Below, piece after piece: positions 30,008 to 32,121 of a stretch of 64,000 bases of DNA. A program made the translations under genes and the position numbers. The notes beneath the pieces were generated by a model, which was not told where the DNA came from, did not search any database, and worked only from the letters and a program-made list of their open reading frames with translations. Positions within the stretch are counted from its first letter, which is position 1. Each line of letters begins with the position of its first letter. This DNA is from Sphaerisporangium krabiense (GTDB lineage Bacteria; Actinomycetota; Actinomycetes; Streptosporangiales; Streptosporangiaceae), in the NCBI RefSeq assembly GCF_014200435.1, contig NZ_JACHBR010000003.1:124001-188000 (forward strand), read 5' to 3'.

Positions 30008-30742
30008 ATGAGCGGATTCGACGACCCGGCCTTCTTCGGCGAGCGCTACGCCCACGAGTACGACGAGCGTCATCCCCTGGACCCGGCCCCGGCCGTGGAG
30101 TTCCTGGCCGCTCTGGTCCCCGGCGGCGGCCGGGTGCTGGAGCTGGCCAGCGGCACCGGCCGCGTCGCGGTGCCGCTGGCCCGGCGCGGCCTCGCCGTCG
30201 AGGGCGTCGAGGCCTCCGAGGCCATGACCGAGCGGATGCGCGCCAAGCCCGGCGGCGCCGCCATCCCCGTGACCACCGGCGACATGGCCGACGTGCCCGT
30301 CCAGGGCCCCTTTCGGCTGGCCTACCTGGTGTACAACACGCTGTTCAACCTCACCAGCCAGGACCGGCAGGTCGACTGCTTCCGCAACGTGGCCAAGGTC
30401 CTGGCCCCGGGCGGCCTGTTCGTCGTCGAGGCCTTCGTCCAGGACCTGACCGGGTTCCGGGACGACCAGCTCGTCGCGACCCGGTCCCTGACCGACGACT
30501 CGGTGGACATGGAGTTCCAGCGGCACGACCCGGTGCGTCAGGTCATCACCTACCAGCGGGTCGCCTTCGAGGCGGGACGCACGACGCTGCGTCCCCTGCG
30601 GCTGCGCTACTGCTGGCCGAGCGAGCTGGACCTGATGGCCCGGCTGGCCGGGATGCGGCTGCGGGATCGGTACGCCGGCTGGGACCGCGCCCCGTTCACC
30701 GCGGCCGACCGGCAGCACGTCTCGGTGTACGAGCGGACCTGA
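30008..30742 (+). CDS. Class I SAM-dependent methyltransferase
   Basis: This 244-residue cytoplasmic methyltransferase has motif I 'VLELASGTGRVAVPLARRG' near residue 43, 'VEGVEASEAMTERM' (acidic loop binding the ribose) near 65, 'TGDMADVPVQGPFRLAYLV' near 95, and 'VLAPGGLFVVEAF' near 135. The C-terminal part has a beta-rich extension ending 'RDRYAGWDRAPFTAADRQHVSVYE', common in this uncharacterised subgroup. Substrate is unknown. It is followed at once by the crcB leader element in the same direction. Confidence 0.88.
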   Translation: MSGFDDPAFFGERYAHEYDERHPLDPAPAVEFLAALVPGGGRVLELASGTGRVAVPLARRGLAVEGVEASEAMTERMRAKPGGAAIPVTTGDMADVPVQGPFRLAYLVYNTLFNLTSQDRQVDCFRNVAKVLAPGGLFVVEAFVQDLTGFRDDQLVATRSLTDDSVDMEFQRHDPVRQVITYQRVAFEAGRTTLRPLRLRYCWPSELDLMARLAGMRLRDRYAGWDRAPFTAADRQHVSVYERT

Positions 30743-30752
30743 GGCGGGCGGT

Positions 30753-30899
30753 TGGTAGGGTGAGGGCACGCCCCGCGGGACGGGGCCACGGCGGTGGGGC
30801 CCGCCGTCCTCGCACCTCGCGAAGAGGCGGCGCAGGGAACCGCGACCGTCGCTCGCCAACGGTCCCTACCAGAGGTGATGTCGTGCTGCTGGTAGGAGG
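30753..30899 (+). promoter_or_regulatory. Structured leader of the crcB operon, candidate translational riboswitch
   Basis: TGGTAGGG (30753-30760) can pair with CCCTACCA (30864-30871), closing a multi-branched domain. That domain contains clear hairpins: GCCCCG/CGGGGC at about 30769-30785, ACGGCGG/CCGCCGT at about 30788-30807, and CCTC/GAGG at about 30815-30827. The same 3' strand, CCTACCAG (30865-30872), is a perfect 8-bp complement of CTGGTAGG (30889-30896). This second hairpin would bury the ribosome site AGGAGG (30894-30899) of crcB. The two pairings exclude each other, which is riboswitch architecture. The canonical fluoride motif is not evident to me. The ligand is inferred from the downstream genes. 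Confidence 0.6.
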
Positions 30900-30905
30900 A
30901 TTCAC

Positions 30906-31391
30906 ATGTCGCGTCACGACCCCGGCCGTCCCGTCGACTCCGACGTCGATCTTCACCAGCCCGCCCAGCGCGCCGAGCTCCGGCGCGCGCCGTGGGCCAC
31001 GCTGGGGGTCATCGCGGCGGGCGGCGCGGCCGGGTCCCTGGCCCGCTACGGCCTCGGCGTGGCCTTCCCGCAGCCGGCGGGGGTTTTCCCGTGGACCACT
31101 CTGGCCATCAACACCAGCGGGAGCCTGCTGATCGGGGTGCTGATGGTCGCGATCACCGAACTGTGGACCGCGCCCGGCTGGGTACGGCCCCTGCTGGGGG
31201 TCGGAGTGCTCGGGGGATTCACCACCTTCTCCACCTATGTCGTGGACATCGGGCGGCTGCTGGCCGGCGGGCAGGCCCGTGCGGCGATGGCGTACCTGCT
31301 GGTCACGCCGGTGTTGGCGCTGGCGGCGGTGTGGGCGGGCAGCGCGGCCACCCGGAAGGTCGGCGCCCGCGGGGAAGGAAGCGCGCGATGA
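30906..31391 (+). CDS. crcB: Fluoride exporter CrcB/Fluc, first subunit
   Basis: This four-helix membrane protein has 161 residues. '[13 protein letters not shown]' is in helix 1, '[19 protein letters not shown]' in helix 2 (the asparagine near residue 75 lines the fluoride path in Fluc), and '[12 protein letters not shown]' in helix 3 is the signature with stacked phenylalanines and threonine. It forms a dual-topology or heterodimeric fluoride channel. A hydrophilic N-terminal extension of ~30 residues precedes helix 1. Its stop overlaps the ATG of the DUF190 gene (ATGA). Translation is probably controlled by the leader. Confidence 0.93.
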
Positions 31392-31738
31392 GGCCGCACG
31401 GCGCCGCGCTGCGGCTGACGGTGCTGGTCGGCGAGACCGATCTGTGGCATCACCGGCCGCTGTACCACGAGATCGTGCACCGCGCGCACGCGGCGGGGCT
31501 GGCCGGGGCCAGCGTGTTCCGCGGCGTCGAGGGGTACGGCGCCTCCAGCCTCATCCACACCACCCGCATCCTGTCGCTGTCGCAGGACCTGCCGGTGGCG
31601 ATCGTCATCGTCGACGAACCCGAGCCGATCCGGGCCTTCCTCCCGCAACTGGACGAGCTGATCGGCGAAGGGCTGGTCATCCTGGACGAGGTCGAGGTGA
31701 TCCGCTACGCCGGCCGCTCCCCGGGAGGCCCGCGGTGA
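31388..31738 (+). CDS. DUF190 family protein in fluoride operon
   Basis: This 116-residue cytoplasmic protein of the DUF190 family has '[21 protein letters not shown]', '[13 protein letters not shown]' near residue 45, and '[20 protein letters not shown]' near 70. The fold is PII-like (ferredoxin-like), and members are frequently encoded between two crcB genes. A regulatory role on the fluoride channel is a reasonable inference but not proven. It is translationally coupled on both sides by 4-base overlaps. Confidence 0.9.
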
Positions 31739-32121
31739 GCGGCGCGCTCACCGGCCCGCTGGCCGTGCTGCTGGTCGCCGCCGGCGCGGCGATCGGCGCG
31801 CCGCTGCGCTACCTGACCGACCGCCTGGTCCAGGCCCGCCACGACACCGTGTTCCCGTGGGGCACCTTCGCGGTGAACATGGCCGGGTCGGCGGTGCTGG
31901 GCTTCCTGGCCGCCCTGCCGGCCGACCAGGTGGTGATGACCGGCGCCGGCATCGGCTTCTGCGGCGCGCTCACCACCTACTCGACCTTCAGCTACGAGAC
32001 GCTGCGGCTCATCGAGGACGGCGCCCGCTTCGCCGCCGTGGCCAACGTGGTGGCCGGCATCGCCGCCGGCCTCGGCGCGGGAGCCTTCGGCTTCGTCCTG
32101 GCCCGCGTCGTGACCGGCTGA
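31735..32121 (+). CDS. crcB: Fluoride exporter CrcB/Fluc, second subunit
   Basis: This second Fluc paralogue of 128 residues has four helices. '[13 protein letters not shown]' is in helix 1, '[19 protein letters not shown]' in helix 2, and '[17 protein letters not shown]' in helix 3. It differs enough from the first copy to suggest that the two form an obligate heterodimer with opposite topology, as in other split Fluc pairs. The GTG start overlaps the stop of the DUF190 gene (GTGA). Confidence 0.92.

Follow-up and report, generated by a model that had tools for sequence, protein, structure and literature searches.

A probable fluoride riboswitch of a diverged branch in the leader of the crcB-DUF190-crcB operon of Sphaerisporangium krabiense

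Positions 30789-30899 of the window, by which we mean the whole 64,000-nucleotide stretch of Sphaerisporangium krabiense DNA analysed here, very probably form a translational ON riboswitch from a diverged branch of the fluoride (crcB) riboswitch, in which G6.C38 replaces A6.U38 (we put this reading at about 0.87). The data behind it are comparative: the leader is homologous to the fluoride aptamer and in register with it; P1, P2, P3, the pseudoknot, pair 6.38 and the anti-Shine-Dalgarno (anti-SD) helix covary; the strands of the pseudoknot and of the anti-SD helix overlap; and the motif is associated with particular downstream genes. The variant is outside RF01734 as Rfam draws that family, yet it is homologous to RF01734 and most likely works like the RF01734 fluoride riboswitch. 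A preliminary description of this DNA had proposed a new riboswitch class, which is contradicted by the presence, in register, of the core elements of the fluoride aptamer; its fallback, an unrecognised, diverged version of that aptamer, is supported by the register, the covariation and sub-threshold RF01734 matches.

All the features described in the window lie on the forward strand. The leader precedes three fluoride-resistance genes, the gene context of RF01734: crcB1 (30906-31391), which encodes a CrcB/Fluc fluoride channel subunit (PF02537, Pfam E 9.1e-25), a DUF190 gene (31388-31738; PF02641, E 3.8e-37) whose start overlaps the crcB1 stop, and crcB2 (31735-32121; PF02537, E 1.7e-26). The Shine-Dalgarno sequence of crcB1, AGGAGG, occupies 30894-30899. 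That this operon has a riboswitch-type leader with an SD-sequestering helix was correctly recognised in the preliminary description, and the leader is conserved across homologous leaders. Its minimum-energy fold is no better than that of shuffled sequences (z -0.87 and -0.49) and P1 is not predicted by minimum-energy folding of the leader. Because folding alone is not unusual for such a GC-rich sequence, the case for the leader is one of comparison.

Architecture and covariation of the aptamer

The conserved part of the RNA (30789-30872) follows the layout of the fluoride aptamer in register, with P1, AACC, P3, a 6-bp pseudoknot and the A40/U48 letters. Aligned leaders read CGGYG-GU-GGGGCC-CRCCG, a variable hairpin, AACC, the P3 hairpin, CAAC, GGUCCC, UAC and then the SD-pairing arm. 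A 5' hairpin, P0 (GCCCCG/CGGGGC, 30770-30786; -12.2 kcal/mol for the fold of 30768-30788), is variable and optional; three loci (L017, L140 and L067; loci are cited by number) have no room for it because a TAnnnT hexamer lies only 7-11 nt before their core. P1 (30789-30806) is the hairpin CGGCG(GU GGGGCC)CGCCG, 100% paired in 38 sequences with compensatory C-G to U-A changes in two of its five pairs, and its loop holds position 6 (G30794), position 7 (U30795) and the 5' pseudoknot strand (30796-30801). An extra hairpin, P2 (30807-30837, -14.9 kcal/mol), is inserted in the P1-P3 junction; its stem covaries, with 88% of cells paired. This junction measures at least 14 nt in 54 of 99 parsed rows, 53 of which fold into a hairpin there, and is short in 45, the named Actinacidiphila and Streptomyces copies included.

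The alignments then place AACC (30838-30841), shared with the canonical fluoride aptamer consensus AACCGC, and the P3 hairpin GCGA/UCGC (30842-30856), which covaries with both-sided changes in five of six pairs and 88% of cells paired. Next come C38, A39, A40 and C41 (30857-30860; canonical U38, G39, A40 and U41), C38 being predicted to pair with G6 (30794), and the 3' pseudoknot strand GGUCCC (30861-30866), which pairs with GGGGCC at 30796-30801. U48 (30867), the linchpin partner of A40 (30859), is also the U of the anti-SD arm.

In 48 distinct rows, preselected for pseudoknot pairing at 5 or 6 of 6 positions and not for 6.38, 100% of the pseudoknot cells are paired and four of the six pairs show both-sided changes. 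Within the variant the pseudoknot is near-invariant (64 of 85 rows identical), so that its covariation stems mainly from setting the variant against canonical and island copies. The whole structure is 98.7% paired over the 48 distinct compact rows, with both-sided change in 8 of 13 pairs, these cells being counts of sequences beneath which few evolutionary events may lie; on either measure, none of 500 shuffles reached the observed value, and slid controls were 40-56% paired. The RNAalifold consensus offered a nested GGUGGGG/CCCUACC helix instead of P1 and the pseudoknot, a candidate that we rejected as it shows no both-sided change. For that reason the search model R2 was given a hand-set P1/P2/P3 structure, and model R1, with the RNAalifold structure, was left out of the searches.

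The tertiary contacts reported for the T. petrophila aptamer include a reversed Watson-Crick pair A6.U38 and a reversed Hoogsteen pair A40.U48 (PMC11586693, PMC10687018). In the window A30859 and U30867 match the second by letters alone; G30794 and C30857 do not literally reproduce the first, and are kept here as a covarying pair. Across 121 rows, positions 6 and 38 are G/C in 106, A/U in 13, C/C in one and G/A in one, the last being misregistered by one base through the fixed-offset parse of L169:9605. Of these rows 120 keep A40, the exception being the misregistered one, and U48 is present in 121 of 121. On the 48 distinct compact rows the pair is G-C in 30, A-U in 17 and other in one, and 16 rows carry the canonical letters A6/U38/G39/U41. 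Canonical UGAU is usually CAAC in the variant, positions 39 and 41 being A and C in 72 of 85 rows. Two intermediates, both in L169, keep G39: one combines A/U with C41, the other G/C with U41. We take the backbone of U41 to be a Mg2+ ligand in the fluoride aptamer; the window has C there. One further copy (L169:7435-7506) has C at both 6 and 38 together with a perfect GGAGCC/GGCUCC pseudoknot, and scores 23.3 bits with RF01734.

The 121 rows are the 134 aligned model matches (92 + 42) minus 13 that lack a pairing P1 or pseudoknot, six of which come from the set of 92; the canonical control loci (L107-L126) supply ten of the 121. This count was made without forcing A40 and U48, which were forced in the 85-row letter count and in the gene-association parse. 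Some of the matches dropped (L173, L160, L170:3710, L041, L049, L052, L199:150, two in L185, L177:2888, L195:1478, L179:864 and L178:2068) may be degenerate real copies, namely L173, upstream of an MFS gene, and L170:3710; others look like chance.

The anti-SD helix and the proposed switch

The 8-bp pairing of CCTACCAG (30865) with CTGGTAGG (30889-30896) that the preliminary description had drawn is borne out as a conserved, covarying anti-SD hairpin. Its arms are CCUACCAG (30865-30872), which overlaps the pseudoknot by CC and uses U48-A49-C50, and, on the SD side, CUGGUAGG (30889-30896); the hairpin is worth -14.8 kcal/mol and the pseudoknot duplex -9.8 kcal/mol. The SD partner is present in 85 of 88 leaders (92 variant-model matches minus four weak ones). 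Over 40 distinct combinations of arm and partner, 86.9% of positions are paired, against 79.9% (sd 1.3) when partners are re-dealt, and none of 2000 re-dealings reached as high. A cruder scan, which misses hairpins with very short loops and gave at most 4 bp in 12 of 85 leaders, found an uninterrupted helix of at least 8 bp in 53 of the 85 (mean 7.5, against 4.5 for shuffled partners). The pairing survives changes in both arms, as in CCTACTTGC/GCGAGTAGG and CCTGTCAGC/GCTGATGGG.

Positions 30865-30867 (CC-U) are common to the pseudoknot/linchpin and to the anti-SD arm, which makes the two structures mutually exclusive. The competition had been imagined as one between two TGGTAGG copies; it is better drawn between the docked pseudoknot, with U30867, and the anti-SD hairpin. 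In B. cereus, the fluoride-locked state is reported to be lost on a U48A change (PMC8752731). Since the pseudoknot and anti-SD strands overlap, the switch would work in the ON direction. We propose the following mechanism: without fluoride, the 3' strand CCUACCAG would pair with CUGGUAGG and mask the first bases of crcB's AGGAGG ribosome site; fluoride and Mg2+ would dock the pseudoknot and U48, thereby withdrawing CC and U from the anti-SD strand; the anti-SD hairpin would then open, crcB-DUF190-crcB would be translated and fluoride exported. The aptamer in this scheme would comprise P1, the inserted P2, P3, the GGGGCC/GGUCCC loop-3' pseudoknot, the A40.U48 linchpin and a Levitt-type G6.C38 pair. 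As in the Levitt pair of tRNAs (PMC3902895), this would be a tertiary G.C contact of the trans Watson-Crick kind that joins distant strands and is sensitive to divalent metal; here it is proposed in a riboswitch pocket from covariation alone.

Relation to RF01734, distribution and downstream genes

In the window, every Rfam family stays below its cut-off. RF01734, whose gathering cut-off is 34 bits, is absent from the window at E<=10 and from its genome at E<=0.01; scanned with permissive settings, 30650-30960 gives two families, both at chance level. A strong match to a known family, which the preliminary description would have taken as a refutation, is lacking, RF01734 appearing below threshold in some relatives only. 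These sub-threshold matches cover the motif in full-length register in L047 (21.5 bits), L062 (19.3 bits, aligned end to end) and L050 (16.0 bits), three of the seven motif loci among 12 sources scanned; L105 (22.9 bits) and L103 (19.8 bits) follow, two of six motif sources besides L169, and then seven of 15 motif sources, with up to 27.4 bits. Variant copies matched by RF01734 thus score 16-27 bits, under the 34-bit cut-off, and in most motif-bearing sources scanned with it the variant copy either went unmatched or stayed below cut-off. In the reverse search, the variant model finds the canonical members L122 and L125 at 32.5 bits.

The conserved bases of the fluoride aptamer, which the preliminary description could not find, are for the most part present in register, with a few coordinated changes. 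Compared with the RF01734 fluoride riboswitch (T. petrophila 4ENC, B. cereus crcB), P1, P3, the loop-3' pseudoknot, AACCGC, the A40/U48 letters, the spacing and the crcB/enolase/Usp/CLC neighbourhood are the same. The differences are G6.C38 for A6.U38, usually C-A-A-C for U38-G39-A40-U41, the presence of P2 in the window and in 53 of 99 parsed rows, and the failure of RF01734 to match the window. Moreover, the platform here is an anti-SD helix, whereas the two best-studied RF01734 members end transcription; canonical fluoride riboswitches of both the transcriptional and the translational kind are known. The variant is missed by Rfam because the contact pair and its neighbours changed together and because P2 is inserted in many copies. 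The G/C swap at 6.38 does not by itself hide a switch from Rfam, as a planctomycete fluoride switch with G6/C38 (L205:1498-1563, reverse strand, upstream of a CLC-family gene) scores 44.4 bits. This copy shares G6/C38/A39 with the variant but keeps U41, is without P2 and lies above the RF01734 cut-off; the G/C swap at pair 6.38 therefore occurs outside actinomycetes. The A.U to G.C switch may thus have arisen independently two or more times, in actinomycetes and in planctomycetes. Among the papers listed from the open-licence literature, no title or abstract opening describes the variant.

The variant model matches 115 of 297 genomes in the window's order, 46 of 246 in the class and 8 of 396 in the phylum, with one match in 149 genomes from the phylum of the planctomycete locus; these figures are lower bounds because scans of more than 40 genomes use stricter filters that lose weak matches. 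RF01734 is above cut-off in 4 of 200 genomes of the order (16 of 200 at E<=0.01), a draw of different size from the 297 used for the variant model, and, across the phylum, in 68 of 396 (99 at E<=0.01). Blast with the leader in the window's family gave 192 of 297 at E<=0.01, a number swollen by many chance matches and not used to estimate prevalence; of its best 30 loci, 29 have a crcB1-like protein beside the leader, and L031 has DUF190 instead. Presence of the leader in orthologous operons, on which the preliminary description had hung its proposal, holds in part: the strict motif is found in 13 of 66 crcB loci from named genomes and not in the remaining 53, which include the Mycolicibacter loci and all Streptomyces loci but one. 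Among the named genomes, the motif is carried by Thermocatellispora, Acrocarpospora, Nonomuraea, Sinosporangium, Herbidospora, Sphaerisporangium, Actinomadura, Actinacidiphila, Streptomyces and Nocardiopsis.

Outside the canonical control loci 109 rows were parsed, a few of them canonical in letters, the Usp one included. The gene downstream is crcB in 85 of these rows, a dynamin-like GTPase in six, DUF190 in four, enolase in two, a PAS/SpoIIE phosphatase in two, and an MFS, an HTH and a Usp gene in one each, seven rows having none assigned. Queries for the non-crcB genes were taken from the same loci, and their identities rest on Pfam for representatives. The 85 of 109 are not a random sample, because the loci of seven rows (L044, L045, L047, L050, L056, L062 and L067) were selected by their similarity to crcB, and L157-L176, with the opposite bias, were taken in as extra or unusual copies. 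Dynamin-like GTPases recur downstream of variant switches (L164, L166, L167, L168, L169 and L171), and L119 has one behind a canonical switch. Some variant switches form divergent pairs about 100-130 nt apart, with DUF190 and crcB in L161:3082-3361, and with a PAS/GAF/SpoIIE phosphatase and crcB in L176:3777-4004. Variant switches also stand upstream of enolase genes assigned by Pfam (L164:3818-3871 and L106:1501-1573), enolase being a fluoride-inhibited enzyme.

The locus L169 (G105:C431:16000-30000) is an island where canonical and variant switches of the fluoride type together give at least seven matches, among MutS-domain, dynamin-like, Usp, PAP2, Gpr1/Fun34/YaaH and NADH-dehydrogenase-type genes. 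Of the RF01734 matches above cut-off here, one (42.9 bits) precedes Usp and one (39.7 bits) lies at the 5' end of the MutS-domain ORF, which as called overlaps the switch, and these canonical switches are interspersed with variant copies that precede a dynamin-like gene and an HTH gene.

Ligand, alternative readings and significance

The genes downstream, mostly crcB but also dynamin-like, DUF190, enolase and Usp genes, point to fluoride as the ligand. The best evidence for it is the occurrence of canonical and variant switches in one island and of fluoride-resistance genes behind the variant. In Enterobacter cloacae, a fluoride-riboswitch operon is reported to include enolase and Usp, with enolase transcripts up 176-fold with fluoride (PMC5533749).

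It is tempting to go further and speculate that the variant is a second subclass of fluoride aptamer, its pocket rebuilt around a metal-dependent G.C Levitt-type pair with changed affinity, metal dependence or even ligand, and that Streptosporangiales-type and some other actinomycetes have it as their usual fluoride switch; we hold this extended proposal to be rather doubtful.

Less likely again, though it is the strongest competitor of the fluoride reading, is that the fold was kept while the ligand changed, perhaps to another small anion. The coordinated changes at 6, 38, 39 and 41 do surround the known Mg3F site, and reversed G.C pairs are described as unstable alone and stabilised by a divalent metal on the guanine (PMC3902895). 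However, crcB follows 85 of 109 copies, a CLC gene follows one with G6/C38, and enolase and Usp, which belong to the Enterobacter fluoride operon (PMC5533749), are found behind model matches.

A class unrelated to the fluoride aptamer, closed by a stem between TGGTAGGG (30753-30760) and CCCTACCA (30864-30871), is very improbable. Both strings are present where the preliminary description placed them, as is CTGGTAGG, and no Rfam family reaches cut-off in the window. Yet only 2 of 88 leaders, that of the window and one more, have an upstream partner that matches at 8/8 positions, and no covariation was detected in this 5' stem; covariation is found in the aptamer helices and in the anti-SD stem. 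The 5' arm, moreover, falls on a -10-like hexamer (TAGGGT, 30756-30761). Of the 88 leaders, 61 carry a TAnnnT hexamer 20-60 nt before the core, where shuffled letters would give 11%; it is probably a promoter -10 box, although no clear -35 box was seen with it. The 5' arm overlaps this hexamer and would therefore probably lie at or before the transcription start, which the hexamer would place near 30768. The fluoride-aptamer core elements in register, and the canonical and variant copies in the same island, equally argue against an unrelated class.

Finally, that the conserved leader is a protein-binding site or a thermosensor instead of a ligand-binding riboswitch can hardly be entertained: the anti-SD hairpin alone could serve such a role, but the unpaired letters that are conserved agree with those of the fluoride pocket and linchpin, which a bare hairpin or a thermosensor would presumably not need.

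A 2024 review gives about 15% of Fluc genes as riboswitch-controlled (PMC11139923), a figure that may be too low for actinomycetes. In a 2026 study of 1901 fluoride switches, whose aptamers were taken from RF01734, nearly no transcriptional variants are reported in Actinomycetota (PMC13273304); such scarcity fits the translational platform described here. The variant also provides a natural compensatory change at a tertiary pair that adjoins the Mg3F site, which opens the role of this pair to direct test.
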